This document shows, one piece after another, positions 12,312-54,558 of a stretch of 64,000 bases of DNA. This DNA comes from a virus: positions 1-64,000 of IMG/VR virus record IMGVR_UViG_3300006916_000041; one strand, 5' to 3'. The notes below the pieces were generated by a model. The model did not search any database. It had not been told where the DNA came from and worked only from the letters and a program-made list of their open reading frames with translations. The position numbers and the translations under genes are program-made. Position 1 is the first letter of the stretch. Each line of letters begins with the position of its first letter.

Positions 12312-12497
12312 ATGCTAGTAAAATGTATAGACGGAACAGTTCAAATTAATTTGGTATTCAAAGATACCAAGAGATGGCAAATTCAAATGCTTACTGCAGG
12401 CACAGATTTTACTATCACTGACAACATGCAGGCTGAGTTTGAACCTGTTACAGAAAAAACTACAATTATTTTAGAAAAAGATACAGAAAAAGGTTGA
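12312..12497 (+). CDS. Small hypothetical protein
   Basis: A 61-residue protein with alternating hydrophobic strands (VQINLVFKDTKRWQIQML) and an acidic, Lys-rich end. Its last codons overlap the -35 box of the next promoter. No recognisable family. Confidence 0.5.
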   Translation: MLVKCIDGTVQINLVFKDTKRWQIQMLTAGTDFTITDNMQAEFEPVTEKTTIILEKDTEKG

Positions 12498-20673: not shown

Positions 20674-21786
20674 ATGAGAATTGAAGATGAAACAAAGTTG
20701 GACTACAGTGATGTCTTGATCCGTCCAAAGCGTAGTACTTTGGGTTCACGCAAAGAAGTACGCATGGAGCGTACATTTACATTTGCACATGGTCAAAATT
20801 ACGAAGGCATTCCAATTATGGCTAGCAACATGGATGGTGTTGGTACTTTTGCTATGGCAGACAAACTAGCAGAAAATGGTATTTTTACTTGTCTTGTAAA
20901 AACATACAGTGTGCAAGAATTGATAGATTACTTTGACAGTGACATGCCTACACGCACAGACAATGTTGCTATGAGTATTGGTATTAAACAAGAAGATCAA
21001 GACAAGTTTCGCACAGTGTATGAACAAGTTGGTAATCATCTTAAATACGTTTGTATTGATGTTGCCAATGGATACAGTCAGCGTTTTATAGAATATGTCA
21101 AAGAATTTAGAACGCTGTATCCTGATATTGTGATCATTGCTGGCAACGTTGTTACAGCAGATCAAACACAGGAGTTAATACTAAATGGAGCAGACATCGT
21201 CAAAGTCGGAATCGGGCCAGGGTCGGTTTGTACGACTCGCATACAAACTGGGGTGGGCTATCCCCAACTTAGTGCGGTTATTGAGTGTGCTGATGCGGCG
21301 CATGGGCTGGGAGGACATATTATTGCTGACGGCGGTTGTACTTGTCCGGGTGATGTGGCAAAGGCTTTTGCTGCCGGTGCTGACTTTGTGATGCTAGGTG
21401 GAATGCTTGCTGGACACGATGAAGGCGGTGGTGAAATTATACAAAAACTTTACAAATCAAATGAATTTATTATACACGAAGATGGTACAGAACAGCATGC
21501 AGTAGAAGAAAAACTATTTGTACAATTCTACGGAATGAGTAGTAAAACTGCCAACGACAAACATTTCGAAGGTCTTAAAGACTATCGTAGCAGTGAAGGA
21601 CGCACAGTTCTTGTGCCTTATCGCGGCGCTGTTATGTCAACAGTTCAAGATATTTTAGGTGGTGTTCGCAGTACACTAACATACGTAGGTGCTCAAAAAC
21701 TCAAGCAACTAGCAAAGTGTACAACTTTTATTAGAGTACACAACCAGTTCAATCGAACATATGAAAGCACAACTACCGGAAATTAA
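20674..21786 (+). CDS. guaC: GMP reductase (IMPDH/GMPR family)
   Basis: A 370-residue barrel enzyme without CBS domains. The signature [20 protein letters not shown] carries the catalytic Cys, followed by [40 protein letters not shown] and [14 protein letters not shown], which match GMP reductase better than IMP dehydrogenase (FYGMSS and LVPYRGAV later). It converts GMP to IMP with NADPH, which would recycle host guanine nucleotides. It directly follows clpS. A central patch (about 21195-21400) uses GGG, GCG, ACG, TCG and CCG codons that are rare in the rest of the gene. Confidence 0.9.
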
Positions 21787-37855: not shown

Positions 37856-38157
37856 TACTAACAGTTACTGAATCAGCTAAAGACTATTTGATAAACATGA
37901 CCAAGCAACACGATAAAAAGTTTGTAAACTTGGCAGTCAAAGGCGGCGGGTGCAGTGGCTTTCAGTATGAATGGACATTTACTGATGAACCAGACGGCAC
38001 GGTGTTTGAGGACATACTAGTTCTAGACCCCATGGCTGAAATGTTTGTGTTTGGTTGTACAGTGGATTACATCAATGAATTAGGCGGTAGTTATTTGACC
38101 GTAAAGAATCCTAATGCAACTGCATCATGTGGTTGTGGGGAAAGTTTCGCAGTTTAA
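37852..38157 (+). CDS. A-type Fe-S carrier, IscA/ErpA/SufA family
   Basis: A 101-residue HesB-like protein: ILTVTESAKDYLINMTKQ, VKGGGCSGFQYEWTFTDEP with the first conserved Cys, and NPNATASCGCGESFAV with the C-x-C motif at the end. It passes Fe-S clusters to target proteins. Together with the SufT-like protein and ferredoxin nearby it suggests the phage supports Fe-S enzymes during infection. Confidence 0.93.
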   Translation: MILTVTESAKDYLINMTKQHDKKFVNLAVKGGGCSGFQYEWTFTDEPDGTVFEDILVLDPMAEMFVFGCTVDYINELGGSYLTVKNPNATASCGCGESFAV

Positions 38158-38168
38158 CGGAGGCGCGA

Positions 38169-39095
38169 ATGAAAATCGTTACTGGTAGCAGTAATCAGCC
38201 TTTTGCCCAAAAGGTTGCAGAACACTGTTTTGTGGATCTCGTACCAGCAGATCTAAACAGGTTCAATGATGGAGAAATATGTGTAGAAGTAAAAGAAAAC
38301 ATCCGGGGCAAGGATGTTTTTTTAGTGAATAGCACTTGTTCTCCTGTAAATGAAAGTTTAATGGAATTGTTGATTATGATAGACACTGCAAAGCGTAGCA
38401 GTGCAAGAAGAATCACAACGGTAATTCCATATTATGGTTATGCAAGACAAGATCGTAAAAGTGCAAGTCGTACACCAATTACAGCAAAACTAGTAGCAGA
38501 CTTGCTTACTAAAGCAGGCGCTGATAGAATTCTCACAATGGATTTACATGCAGGACAGATACAAGGATTTTTTGATATTCCAGTAGATGATCTTACTAGT
38601 AGAGTAGTATTTGCTAAAGATATTGAATCTAAAATTAACAAAGAAGAAGGCTGTGTATTTGTAAGTCCAGATGCTGGCGGTGCAGTAAGAGCCCGTAAGT
38701 TTGCTGACATGTTTCACGGAGATATTGCTATTGTTGACAAACGCAGACCTCGAGCAGGTGTTGCTGAAGTTATGGCACTGATTGGAGATGTAAAAGGCAA
38801 ACATGCTATCCTAGTAGATGACATTGTTGACAGTGGAGGTACACTGTGCAAAGCAGCAGATGCAATTCTAGAAGCAGGTGCGCTCAGTGTTAGAGCATAT
38901 ATCACACATGGTGTTCTTAGCAATGGCGCTCAAAAGAAAATTGATGCAAGTAATTTACAAGAACTTGTTGTCAGTGATAGTATTCCTTATACAGGAACAA
39001 GTAAAAAAATACGTCAAGTAAGTGTTGCTCCACTGTTTGGTGAAGCAATGCGTAGAATCACAAATGAAGAAAGTGTAAGTAGTTTATTCCAATGA
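38169..39095 (+). CDS. prs: Ribose-phosphate pyrophosphokinase (PRPP synthetase)
   Basis: A 308-residue class I PRPP synthetase. FVDLVPADLNRFNDGEICVE and RRITTVIPYYGYARQDRKSA carry the ATP and Mg residues. TMDLHAGQIQGFFDIPVDDL and KRRPRAGVAEVM follow. The PRPP loop is ILVDDIVDSGGTLCKAADAI. It makes PRPP from ribose-5-phosphate and ATP, the entry to nucleotide synthesis and NAD. ATG 38169 has GGAGGCGCGA. Phage copies are known but uncommon. Downstream gene overlaps by four bases. Confidence 0.95.
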   Translation: MKIVTGSSNQPFAQKVAEHCFVDLVPADLNRFNDGEICVEVKENIRGKDVFLVNSTCSPVNESLMELLIMIDTAKRSSARRITTVIPYYGYARQDRKSASRTPITAKLVADLLTKAGADRILTMDLHAGQIQGFFDIPVDDLTSRVVFAKDIESKINKEEGCVFVSPDAGGAVRARKFADMFHGDIAIVDKRRPRAGVAEVMALIGDVKGKHAILVDDIVDSGGTLCKAADAILEAGALSVRAYITHGVLSNGAQKKIDASNLQELVVSDSIPYTGTSKKIRQVSVAPLFGEAMRRITNEESVSSLFQ

Positions 39096-46402: not shown

Positions 46403-46527
46403 AACGTTTAGAAAATTACGTAGCATGGTATCGAAAACTACGCAGTCAAGGATATAGTCGGTTAGACTGTTTAAGCTGGGCAGTTTATAACAGTAAACAT
46501 TATACAATACACGGAATATATAAATGA
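46399..46527 (+). CDS. 42-residue basic protein
   Basis: Overlaps the methyltransferase-like gene and gapdh by four bases each. Product KRLENYVAWYRKLRSQGYSR then LDCLSWAVYNSKHYTIHG: helical, basic, rich in Tyr and Trp. No family recognised. Confidence 0.6.
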   Translation: MKRLENYVAWYRKLRSQGYSRLDCLSWAVYNSKHYTIHGIYK

Positions 46528-47489
46528 TCAGTATAGGTATAAATGGATTCGGAAGAATAGGACGTTGCGTTGCCAGACACATCATGAGTGAACGCAATGA
46601 TATGCAGATTGTACAAATCAATGCCAGCGGTGGCGAAGAAACAAATATGCATTTGCTAAAATATGACACAGTTCACGGAACATATAAAGGTCCCATACAC
46701 GAGCCGATACTGTGGACAGAAGAACGAGATATAGAACAGTTAAAATGGCACGGTGTTGATGTTGTACTAGAATGCACAGGAGCATACAACAACGGGTTAA
46801 AATGTCTTAACCATACTCTTAACGGTGCTAAAAAAGTAGTAATCAGTGCTCCGGCTGCAGACGTAAAACGCACAGTTGTTTATGGTGTTAATCATCAAGA
46901 CATAACCAGTTCAGAAAACATTGTTAGTAATGCCAGTTGTACAACAAACTGTCTTGCTCCACTAGTAAAAGTATTAGATGAACAGTTTGGTATTATAAAT
47001 GGACAAATGACAACTGTACACAGTTACACAGGTGACCAAGGTACTATTGACAAACGACACAGAGACTTGTATAGAGCTAGAGCAGCAGGATCGAATATTA
47101 TACCTACCAGTACAGGTGCAGCAAAGGCACTGCAACATGTGTATCCAAAACTCAAAAACAAAATCATGGGCAGTGCTATTAGAGTACCAACACAAAATGT
47201 GAGTTGTGTGGATTTGACTGTGCAACTTGAGCAAGAAGTCAATGAAAAATTGGTCAATGAAGCAGTAGCAAGTGCTAGTAAAAATGACATGCGTGGCATT
47301 ATAGCCTATCAACCATTGCCACTGGTAAGCAGTGACTTTAACACCACAAAAGAAAGTTGTATTTTTGCACCAGAACAAACAAGAGTAGTTGACAATCATT
47401 TGGTTCGTGTACTAGCATGGTATGATAATGAATGGGCATTTAGTTGCCGCATGGCAGATGTAGCAGCACACATGATGACTTTACAATGA
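46524..47489 (+). CDS. gap: Glyceraldehyde-3-phosphate dehydrogenase
   Basis: A 321-residue GAPDH. INGFGRIGRCVARHI binds the dinucleotide, NASCTTNCLAPLVKVLDEQF carries the catalytic Cys, TVHSYTGDQGTIDKRHRDLY follows, then RARAAGSNIIPTSTGAAKAL and AIRVPTQNVSCVDLTV. The end is WYDNEWAFSCRMAD. After the second strand the usual NAD-selecting Asp (IND) is replaced by QINASGGEETN, which suggests preference for NADP(H), as in gluconeogenic or photosynthetic forms. Phage-encoded GAPDH is very unusual. Confidence 0.93.
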   Translation: MISIGINGFGRIGRCVARHIMSERNDMQIVQINASGGEETNMHLLKYDTVHGTYKGPIHEPILWTEERDIEQLKWHGVDVVLECTGAYNNGLKCLNHTLNGAKKVVISAPAADVKRTVVYGVNHQDITSSENIVSNASCTTNCLAPLVKVLDEQFGIINGQMTTVHSYTGDQGTIDKRHRDLYRARAAGSNIIPTSTGAAKALQHVYPKLKNKIMGSAIRVPTQNVSCVDLTVQLEQEVNEKLVNEAVASASKNDMRGIIAYQPLPLVSSDFNTTKESCIFAPEQTRVVDNHLVRVLAWYDNEWAFSCRMADVAAHMMTLQ

Positions 47490-50669: not shown

Positions 50670-50921
50670 ATGTCACAAGAAGAAGGCGTTCATGTTACAT
50701 TAGATGATCTAACTCCACAACAGGTACAAATGCTGAATAAGATTTGGAGTTATGACAGGGCTGAAGATTTACAAGCATTTAGAGACAGCCTGCCTCGATT
50801 CCGTCAACAGGAACTTGATACACTTGTTATAATGATAATAATGGAAATGGAAGGAGTCAAGGCTGAAGAAGATGTAAGCATGGCTCAAGAGATGTTGCGT
50901 GATCTTGGATACTCATGTTAG
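50670..50921 (+). CDS. Small acidic helical protein
   Basis: An 83-residue protein starting after TAGGAGACCGC. VTLDDLTPQQVQMLNKIWSY and YDRAEDLQAFRDSLPRFRQQ then MEMEGVKAEEDVSMAQEMLR; wholly helical. Overlaps the next gene by seven bases. Unknown function. Confidence 0.6.
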   Translation: MSQEEGVHVTLDDLTPQQVQMLNKIWSYDRAEDLQAFRDSLPRFRQQELDTLVIMIIMEMEGVKAEEDVSMAQEMLRDLGYSC

Positions 50922-51202
50922 ACGATAATGCAGCTAAAATATTTGCTGAAAACATAAACATGATGGTGCCATGGTATCTCATGGCATCGTATGCGTACTA
51001 CAAAAAAGATGAACCTATACTCAGCGATGCGTTCTTTGACGCTATGGGCAAAACTATGTTGGAGAGATGGGATGACATTGATCATTTTCACAAGCACTTT
51101 ATTACTGTTGATGACTTACAAGCCGGAACCTATCTTGGCGACTATCCCAGTCGTGTCGAAGGTGCCCTTAAAGACCTTGTTGATAAACACAAAAAAGGTT
51201 GA
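50915..51202 (+). CDS. LigA domain Ia-like small protein
   Basis: A 95-residue protein containing YAYYKKDEPILSDAFFDAMG, which matches the Y-x-Y-Y-x-x-D-x-P-x-x-S-D motif of the Ia domain of NAD-dependent DNA ligases, which binds nicotinamide mononucleotide. The catalytic ligase part is absent. It may bind NAD or related molecules, or be a remnant. It closes the early operon. Confidence 0.6.
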   Translation: MLDDNAAKIFAENINMMVPWYLMASYAYYKKDEPILSDAFFDAMGKTMLERWDDIDHFHKHFITVDDLQAGTYLGDYPSRVEGALKDLVDKHKKG

Positions 51203-51227
51203 CATCTAATAAAAAATATGCTATGTA
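51199..51227 (+). promoter_or_regulatory. Sigma70-like promoter for the nuclease cassette
   Basis: TTGACA (51199-51204), 17 bases, TATGTA (51222-51227). No AAGACGTCTT palindrome. The leader of about 75 bases contains GGCT-GGA-AGCC and other short pairings before GGAAAAGTAA. Confidence 0.6.
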
Positions 51228-51309
51228 ATTAATGTAAGCAATAACGTTTACGAAAACTAGGACGAGTAGGTCCGATATAGGCTGGAAGCCGCAACACAAG
51301 GAAAAGTAA

Positions 51310-52449
51310 ATGGAACTATCATACGCAACCCGTGTGAACAAAGAATATGAAACTAGTGCATCTAACTTTGTCACACTACAAGAACGATTAAACGAAGCAC
51401 TAGAAAAGGCACCATTTTTCGCTGCACAGCTAGATCAAATGGTATCCGAATTTAAACGCAAAAATTCAAAATGGAAAAAGTTTAGCGATTTACAACTGTG
51501 TAAAGCACAGATGACTGCGCTGGACAAAATCATTATTGATGCTAGTATGCAACGACAGCCTAATATGCGTCACATACTAGAAATTTTACAAAATTTCCGA
51601 GAAACAATGGTCATGGCTATCCAAGTTTATGTAAATGAGGATGGAAATTATGTGGCTTGGGATGGCCAGCACACTGCGCTAGCACTTTATATTTTAGCCA
51701 CTAAAGTATTTGGTGATCGCTTAAAGGCATGTGAAATACCAATTGTTGTGTACTGCACAAGTCAAAAACTTGAAATTCGTCGTAACTTTATTTTGTTGAA
51801 TGGCGATGCAAAACAACCACTAGACTTTATCGACACATACAAGCAAATGGTTTATGGTGTTAAAGTTGATGGTGCAACAGACCAAGAATGGGTAGACACT
51901 GCAAAGAAAAATGACTACTTCCGTGACGCAGACTTGTTTGCTACTAACAGCAAGTTTGGTGACGACGACGAAACAGGTGCATTTACATTGCTTGCAGATA
52001 CTACAATGAGCAAGAGCCTGAAAACACGTAAAAATCCAGAAGTAACTCGTATGTTTGCAGACTACTGGACTCGCTTAAATGCAAAACGTCCAGTTGATGC
52101 TAAAGAAGCAAGGCAGTTGTTTGAGTACTTTAACTTGTGCTATGAACAAGGAATTACAGTAGACGACGATTATGTAAAAGAGTTTGTAGAGTTTACCAAA
52201 GACTTCTTTGAAGCAGACTTTTCGCCTAACGGAATGTTTTGGGATAAAGTTAAAATGGCATACGAAAGCTGGTATGCAAAAGCTAACCCAGAAAGCTACA
52301 ACGATTGGGGTGTACGGGGGTTTACTACAGAGATGCGTACAGGGCTTCCGTTCTTGATTGCACAATTACGCAAAAGTACAAATCTTAAAACTCCTAATTA
52401 CACACCAAACAATGGCTTCACAGTTTCTAAAGAGGACTTGTGGGACTAA
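51310..52449 (+). CDS. DGQHR/ParB-like protein of a nuclease cassette
   Basis: A 379-residue protein. NGxxxAWDGQHTALALYILA-type core: the segment NYVAWDGQHTALALYILATK matches the DGQHR (DndB-like) and ParB-like motif, followed by IVVYCTSQKLEIRRNFILLN and GDAKQPLDFIDTYKQMV. The C-terminal half is helical and aromatic. In DNA-phosphorothioation and related systems DGQHR proteins regulate or sense modification. The next two genes, overlapping, code for HNH and MutH-like nucleases, so these three probably act together. Confidence 0.7.
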   Translation: MELSYATRVNKEYETSASNFVTLQERLNEALEKAPFFAAQLDQMVSEFKRKNSKWKKFSDLQLCKAQMTALDKIIIDASMQRQPNMRHILEILQNFRETMVMAIQVYVNEDGNYVAWDGQHTALALYILATKVFGDRLKACEIPIVVYCTSQKLEIRRNFILLNGDAKQPLDFIDTYKQMVYGVKVDGATDQEWVDTAKKNDYFRDADLFATNSKFGDDDETGAFTLLADTTMSKSLKTRKNPEVTRMFADYWTRLNAKRPVDAKEARQLFEYFNLCYEQGITVDDDYVKEFVEFTKDFFEADFSPNGMFWDKVKMAYESWYAKANPESYNDWGVRGFTTEMRTGLPFLIAQLRKSTNLKTPNYTPNNGFTVSKEDLWD

Positions 52450-52898
52450 TGGCTAAATTGTTAGACAAAAACAACCGTAAGATGAAAAGTCCGGGAATAC
52501 TACGTGAGCAATATCGACGTGGTGCTAAGTGTATGCTTGAAGATTGTGATAATGATTTGAGTATATTCGATGGACCCGGCGGAAACATTTTATGTGAAGA
52601 GCATCAACTGGAATGTGTAGAATACGGTGGCATGGGTAAACCAGAACGTCCACACACTTTCTACAGAGGTTGGGAATGTAACACTTGTGGTTATGATCCA
52701 CGTGAAGATCCTGAGATCATTTCAATTGAGGATCCATATCATCAACTGCGTGTAGCACGTGGTGTAATGCATGGAGACCATATTCACTTGAAAAGTCAGG
52801 GTGGAGCAGACACAGCAGAAAACATCAATACACTGTGCTGTCGTTGTCACATGATCAAAAGCTACAAAGAAAAAGATTATCTAGGAACAAGACAATGA
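52449..52898 (+). CDS. HNH endonuclease
   Basis: A 149-residue protein with two zinc-type groups: CMLEDCDNDLSIFDG/CEEHQLEC in the first half, then WECNTCGYDPREDPEI. The HNH motif is MHGDHIHLKSQGGADTAENI followed by NTLCCRCHMIKSYK (H-N-H with C-x-x-C). It starts inside the stop of the DGQHR-like gene (TAATG) and overlaps the MutH-like gene (ATGA). Confidence 0.85.
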   Translation: MAKLLDKNNRKMKSPGILREQYRRGAKCMLEDCDNDLSIFDGPGGNILCEEHQLECVEYGGMGKPERPHTFYRGWECNTCGYDPREDPEIISIEDPYHQLRVARGVMHGDHIHLKSQGGADTAENINTLCCRCHMIKSYKEKDYLGTRQ

Positions 52899-53545
52899 AA
52901 ATAACACGAGTAAAAGGAATCGAAGTTGGTGATAGTTTGCCAAGTTGGATAAATTCTGATACATCACCAACTGTTATCGGAAATTACTTTCATGACAAAC
53001 TTGGTCAATTTCAAGGAGGTTATAACACAGGCAAAGGGTCTGACTTTCCTCTACTAGAACTTGAATTGAAAACCAAAAGCCAATACAAGTTGTCCAGAAA
53101 CAAAATTGTAAAAAACAATACAGATTGGACTGTTGGAACTATAACACTATCAGACTTGCTGAATCAAAGTTGGTCACAAACACACTTGTCTAAAAAAATG
53201 AAAGTTTGGTTGACTGTGGTTTATGACAAACATTATCTGAACACAGTTAAATCCAAAAATATTGTAGATTTTAGGCATTCTAGTGTACAACAAAAATTAG
53301 AACATGCCTATAATTTTGCACAACAACACATGTTATCAACTGTACAGCAAAGTCTACAAACAGGTATTGCATTAGAAAAACTGTTTAAGCCTGGAGGGTA
53401 TGACAGAATAGGATATGGCATTGTGTTTGAACGCAAAGGTGCAGAAGATATTGAAACCTTTAGTATGAGAATAACACAGAGTCATTTGCCAAAGTTGGAA
53501 AAACTTAGCAATAGTGTACAACATGCATTTTTGGAATGGAGTTGA
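52895..53545 (+). CDS. MutH/Sau3AI-like PD-(D/E)XK endonuclease
   Basis: A 216-residue protein. IGNYFHDKLGQFQGGYNTGK, then SDFPLLELELKTKSQYKLSR gives D-x-x-P-L-L-E-L-E-L-K-T, the D...ExK site of the MutH/Sau3AI group (compare DFPELGVELKT). Later segments WTVGTITLSDLLNQSW and GIVFERKGAEDIETFSMRIT fit restriction-like folds. MutH-type enzymes nick GATC-like sites. As part of a three-gene cassette it may degrade unmodified host or competitor DNA. Confidence 0.75.
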   Translation: MKITRVKGIEVGDSLPSWINSDTSPTVIGNYFHDKLGQFQGGYNTGKGSDFPLLELELKTKSQYKLSRNKIVKNNTDWTVGTITLSDLLNQSWSQTHLSKKMKVWLTVVYDKHYLNTVKSKNIVDFRHSSVQQKLEHAYNFAQQHMLSTVQQSLQTGIALEKLFKPGGYDRIGYGIVFERKGAEDIETFSMRITQSHLPKLEKLSNSVQHAFLEWS

Positions 53546-54529: not shown

Positions 54530-54558
54530 TTGACATTCGAGACATCTTACTTTATATT
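54530..54558 (+). promoter_or_regulatory. Early promoter with degenerate palindrome
   Basis: TTGACA (54530-54535), 17 bases with GAGACATCTTA, TATATT (54553-54558); leader GTGTAAGTTGAGAAAAACGGAG as in the family. Confidence 0.8.

Follow-up and report, generated by a model that had tools for sequence, protein, structure and literature searches.

Three overlapping genes in a T4-like virus record raise the question of whether a protein with a DGQH motif works together with two nucleases, as an initial annotation of this DNA had proposed, or whether a smaller unit is the one that evolution has kept. Here, we describe the genes, their leader and their relatives in the window, which is the first 64 kb (64,000 nucleotides) of a 172,409-bp virus record (IMGVR_UViG_3300006916_000041) encoding a T4-like clamp loader (phrog_168, E 1.1e-82). 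Re-reading of the coordinates confirmed three overlapping reading frames on the plus strand. The DGQH protein (51310..52449, 379 aa, AWDGQHTALALYILA) is followed through a TAATG overlap of 1 nt by an HNH nuclease (52449..52898, 149 aa), and this gene overlaps by 4 nt (ATGA) with that of an accessory MutH/Sau3AI-like PD-(D/E)XK nuclease (52895..53545, 216 aa). Selection on the DGQH and HNH genes is purifying, and because dN/dS against relatives is 0.03-0.13 they are not chance ORFs.

An early-type promoter (TTGACA-N17-TATGTA-ATTA-ATGTAAG) lies upstream on the same strand at 51199..51238, one of eight matches to this pattern in the 172-kb record; downstream, the pattern first recurs at 54530. 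With no further match before that point the DGQH, HNH and MutH-like genes may share a transcript, and the single promoter that had been proposed for all three is plausible on this pattern scan. A generic sigma-70 scan did not list the promoter at 51199 because its -10 rule is strict. The repeated early-promoter-like element (TTGACA-N16-18-TATATT-..TGTAAG) is found at 12494, 13267, 50131, 51199, 54530, 55820, 57433 and 109703 of the record.

Other genes in the window match GAPDH (46524-47489), ribose-phosphate pyrophosphokinase (38127-39095) and IMPDH/GMP reductase (20674-21786) in Pfam. A 95-aa protein (50915-51202) matches DNA ligase over the N-terminal NAD+-binding domain only (Nlig-Ia, E 3e-8); in L002 and L004 its homologue lies downstream of the DGQH-HNH pair. 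Radical SAM/SPASM-like cysteine motifs, read by eye, recur in many proteins encoded on the minus strand between 123180 and 162512 of the record.

A conserved gene pair and its changing neighbours

In IMG/VR, the DGQH protein is encoded on 179 contig stretches (80 fetched) and the HNH protein on 84. The HNH gene directly follows the DGQH gene in all fetched loci except four that are cut by contig ends, with -6 to +13 nt between the HMM-matched parts of the two proteins, which bears out the earlier view of a genetic link between the DGQH protein and a nuclease. The conserved unit is the DGQH-HNH pair and not the trio. No third gene is conserved among 71 distinct sequences downstream of the pair, which fall into about 29 families; proteins named by eye in this third slot are sugar epimerase-like, VWA-like, UvsW-like and GroES-like, together with a few nucleases or nuclease-like proteins. 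Nuclease-like third genes number about 11 of the 71, a count made by eye (several from motif reading only) and not claimed as an enrichment over background. Behind the pair in L057 (L057:1413-3679) and the L059 record there are a 278-aa possible PD-(D/E)XK protein (motif reading) and a D12 methyltransferase, the latter being the fourth gene in L057 (Pfam E 1.6e-20); this set resembles a restriction-modification set within a phage operon.

The MutH-like protein of the window was assigned correctly, as it matches Pfam MutH (PF02976, E 1.8e-6, 28.2 bits against a gathering score of 23) and direct reading of SDFPLLELELK gives the D-x6-E-x-K spacing; the NCBIfam Sau3AI model reaches E 0.005 only. 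Among the IMG/VR loci, this gene is found elsewhere on one near-identical contig only. Behind the pair in L042 and L071 lies a diverged MutH-like gene (hhalign, 169 columns, E 2e-4) with the same D-x6-E-x-K spacing; Pfam MutH matches the L042 record weakly (E 0.019). A sensor coupled to two nucleases, as first proposed, would suit these two loci and the three overlapping, probably cotranscribed ORFs of the window, but it is very improbable: MutH-like genes occupy about 3 of the 71 distinct downstream sequences, and comparison of neighbourhoods finds the pair recurring without MutH. By the yardstick that the initial annotation itself had set, a conserved trio was ruled out: nearly all loci lack MutH behind the pair, and similarity to the closest relatives stops at the 3' end of the HNH gene. 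The MutH-like gene is an accessory add-on local to this phage, where it may be an extra nuclease gained behind the operon.

That nearest comparison, with L002, gives 91% DNA identity over 51226-52887, ending before the MutH gene, against about 70% for the clamp loader and downstream core genes. Synonymous divergence (pS) is low in the DGQH gene (0.26) but high in the HNH gene (0.66) and the clamp loader (0.71), and local exchange therefore involved mainly the leader and DGQH gene; the difference between the two halves also weakens the idea that the pair always transfers as one unbroken block. In phages, HNH genes are often mobile elements, and this, with the raised identity of the segment over the core genes, would fit a selfish homing-like element in which the HNH protein is a free-standing homing endonuclease and the DGQH protein its helper or regulator. 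Such an element is distinctly improbable here, given the strict partnership with a 379-aa protein, the roughly 29 different downstream contexts, an HNH half that predates the DGQH half in the L002 comparison, and a catalytic part that is the most variable.

The pair occurs in uncultured marine and freshwater phages, on T4-like and jumbo contigs of up to 383 kb. A tblastn search of 50,697 phage records found no relative of the DGQH or MutH-like protein, and cultured phage records gave no match to the operon at the sensitivity used. No DGQH or HNH homologue was confirmed in the bacterial genome set, and no DGQH relative was found in plasmids. This absence from the bacterial genomes and plasmids searched, the spread through T4-like and jumbo phages, the operon's own early-type promoter and the strong purifying selection would all fit a phage takeover or DNA-processing nuclease, acting in host-chromosome breakdown or in a replication or recombination step, with the DGQH protein structural or regulatory and sensing no modification. 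We regard this as possible but rather unlikely, because the sporadic position and changing neighbours are more typical of an accessory module than of a core function, and a DGQHR/ParB fold joined to an HNH nuclease resembles the make-up of modification-dependent enzymes.

The DGQH and HNH proteins and their relatives

The motif residues of the DGQH protein are QR (81-82), DGQHT (118-122) and FxxxN (160-164), placed in a ParB/Srx-fold domain of about residues 65-170; the C-terminal part is helical. An AF2 model built from 52 sequences (pLDDT 91) matches ParB (7o0n, Z 7.4), 1vk1 (Z 6.9) and sulfiredoxin (6ky4, Z 6.6) over about 90 residues, and matches among viral models are ParB/sulfiredoxin proteins, one 'sulfur modification protein' and cyanophage proteins, so that the predicted fold is that of ParB and sulfiredoxin. 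Against BrxU (7p9m) and DndBCDE-DndI (9jfl) the model reaches Z 2.1 only. QR, GQHT, and F/Y160 with N164 are each kept in 52/52 family members, and the first residue of the central motif is D or E, giving (D/E)GQHT in all 52. The QR, DGQH and FxxxN motifs are known from earlier work on GmrS and on the DGQHR domain (PMC4619093). The DGQH protein keeps all three, with T in 52/52 members in place of the R of DGQHR/DGQQR, which is thought to bind phosphate.

Searched alone in Pfam, the DGQH protein of the window gave no significant match, whereas weak DndB matches (PF14072, best E 3.5e-4) were found in 6 of the 52 members, which do not include the window protein. PHROG gave a ParB-like match (E 5e-5), and NCBIfam TIGR03187 (DGQHR) matched with E 7.8e-5 and 22.5 bits, under its cut-off of 58.85. 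The relationship to DGQHR proteins that had been proposed is thus real but remote, and the DGQH protein is best described, from sequence comparison, as a distant relative of DGQHR/DndB proteins outside curated thresholds. PADLOC returned nothing for the DGQH or MutH-like protein, and PDB sequence searches with these two and three third genes gave nothing useful.

The HNH assignment also stands (Pfam HNH, E 1.5e-8); PADLOC gave weak generic HNH matches only. The N-terminal part of the protein is Cys/His zinc-like, with four conserved residues (C28, C33, C49 and H52), and the HNH domain runs from C77 with D110-H111, N125, C130/C133 and H134. C77, C80, D110, H111, N125, C130 and C133 are invariant across 51 HNH sequences, and the catalytic D/H, the N and the two CxxC zinc knuckles of PF01844 are present, H134 being replaced by N in one lineage. 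In a predicted model (pLDDT 93) the HNH domain covers residues 61-149, and its nearest folds, every one with Z < 6, are ZRANB3, TasH, GmeHNH, EcoKMcrA, TagI, Cap5 and ScoMcrA, of which EcoKMcrA, TagI and ScoMcrA are modification-dependent. Divergence of the DGQH protein correlates with that of the HNH N-terminal part (r 0.51, permutation p 0.001) more strongly than with that of the catalytic part (r 0.17), which suggests that the HNH protein consists of an N-terminal adaptor and an exchangeable nuclease effector. L039, L040, L082, L048 and their relatives keep the N-terminal part of the HNH protein and have a different C-terminal nuclease half, and in one group among them the last His is Asn (CxxCN).

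Closest in design are the Type IV systems GmrSD, BrxU and SspE (DUF262 + DUF1524), which share with this operon a ParB/Srx-fold subunit, the QR, DGQ and FxxxN motifs, and a sensor coupled to an adjacent HNH-type nuclease. Here, in contrast, the motif is DGQHT and not DGQQR, the HNH is of another type with a zinc-like N-terminal part, the two proteins are encoded by separate genes, and the operon is phage-borne with a tandem-hairpin leader; neither DUF262 nor DUF1524 matched the operon proteins at E 1 or better in Pfam. DGQHR proteins and DndB share the remote similarity, the DGQH motif and a ParB-like fold, but the DGQH protein falls under both curated cut-offs (TIGR03187 and PF14072), has the change from R to T and has an obligate HNH partner, and no dnd genes were nearby in the loci read. 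Since the operon lacks DUF262, DUF1524 and the DGQQR motif and scores under the DGQHR cut-off, it would be a variant working like these systems and not a member of them. Pfam, NCBIfam and PADLOC hold no named family for it, giving remote or generic matches only.

In T4-like cyanophages (S-IOM18, S-RIM2, QB2 and S-M1), the DGQHT protein phrog_2558 has the same QR..DGQHT motifs; it matches 7/52 DGQH members (best E 0.0016), with a fold match of E 5e-5. It differs in very low identity, in having no HNH partner and in that no tandem-hairpin leader was found. Its gene lies beside a Dam-type methyltransferase, with a MutH-like nuclease as well in S-IOM18 and QB2, and DGQH proteins therefore keep DNA-modification company in T4-like phages. 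DGQHT (phrog_2558), D12 adenine methyltransferase and MutH-like nuclease (phrog_15364) genes cluster in S-IOM18 (L207:23697-26802) and L211-L214, although some of these cyanophages have just two of the three.

The tandem-hairpin leader

Between the promoter and the DGQH ATG of the window lie two plus-strand hairpins, GGAC-GAGTAG-GTCC (51260..51273) and GGCT-GGA-AGCC (51280..51290, MFE fold). The position of the first upstream of the DGQH gene is kept in most loci, and at least two hairpins within 120 nt are found in 37/69 distinct leaders, against 2% of random windows; a hairpin directly upstream was undetected in 11/69. In L005 and L007 an ORF of about 92-96 aa lies between the hairpins and the DGQH gene. 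The third pair of GGNC..GN'CC is complementary in 29/31 distinct units with all four pair types occurring (2000 permutations: mean 9.3, maximum 17), and the two stems of one leader, 22-25 nt apart, differ at this pair in 28/29 cases, so that cross-pairing would be prevented.

A MAFFT alignment of all leaders misaligned the hairpins owing to variable loop lengths, and a same-loop subset was used instead. A covariance model built from 13 leaders matched 34 times in 1.3 Mb, in every case but one upstream of a DGQH gene; the exception (L039, 12245) lacks a clear pair of hairpins. When IMG/VR was scanned with two exact patterns, a DGQH gene followed the match in 20/20 cases, and by these two patterns the leader is absent from the viral collection other than before DGQH. 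Because the models and scans place the hairpins almost only before DGQH, we rejected the idea that they are a stem-loop carried by early genes of these phages in general. The leader of the window matches the model weakly (E 0.22), yet nothing else in the record matches better; its fold lacks significant stability (z -1.4), and Rfam holds no family for the leader.

In Salmonella, DndB autoregulates by binding to a pair of inverted repeats (TACG-N10-CGTA) within the promoter of its own gene (PMC4507180). With two inverted repeats also upstream of the DGQH gene, and with the weak DndB matches in Pfam, this precedent would allow the DGQH protein to be mainly a DndB-like DNA-binding autoregulator, the repeats its DNA operator and the HNH protein a regulated effector. 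That account is unlikely: the repeats lie downstream of the -10, and a free base at position 3 with complementarity kept, in units that nearly always differ, speaks for RNA pairing over base readout. The leader hairpins probably limit translation, perhaps when bound by one of the two operon products. That the leader RNA is itself a component of the DGQH-HNH complex, as a scaffold or guide for the nuclease, is highly doubtful.

DNA modification and the proposed function

The initial annotation had suggested that the nucleases spare modified phage DNA. The 172-kb record yielded no recognised D12, N6/N4 or C5 DNA methyltransferase and no TGT, which argues against that idea and would suit an enzyme that cuts modified DNA while leaving the phage intact. 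GATC occurs 603 times in the record against 583 expected; GATC avoidance as a footprint of the MutH-like enzyme was therefore rejected, which leaves three options for this enzyme: a different recognition site, control of its activity, or a block through methylation by the host. Dam may come from the host. The MutH-like protein also departs from its family in that its record holds no recognised Dam-type methyltransferase and its gene is unlinked to MutS/MutL. Avoidance of CGCG, GGCC and AGCT is seen also in relatives without MutH. CGCG counts are far below expectation (21 of 108 in the 172-kb record, 1 of 51 in G001 and 0 of 33 in G003), and CATG is avoided in relatives and not in this record.

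If the pair senses modification, attack on modified DNA with unmodified phage DNA spared, as in Type IV systems, would be the better fit. We tentatively favour, at somewhat less than even confidence, a two-gene operon with a cis leader that encodes a split sensor-plus-nuclease of the GmrSD/SspE kind. From the early promoter, the transcript would run through the tandem-hairpin leader RNA into the DGQH and then the HNH coding sequence, with the leader keeping expression of the operon in check. The DGQH protein would be a ParB/Srx-fold sensor, probably nucleotide-binding, although we infer its NTP use from fold and motifs. It may hold the HNH subunit through the zinc part at the N-terminus of the latter, and license cleavage of DNA bearing a feature absent from the phage, for example a modified base or backbone in the DNA of the host or a rival phage.

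The DGQH-HNH operon is newly recognised across marine and freshwater phages of the T4-like and jumbo kinds, and its leader is a direct handle for finding more members and for probing how the operon is controlled. Should the leader RNA prove to belong to the complex, the operon would encode an RNA-containing nuclease of an undescribed kind. If the operon is a phage-borne Type IV-like nuclease, these phages would carry their own modification-dependent restriction, which would bear on phage-phage competition and on the persistence of modified phages.
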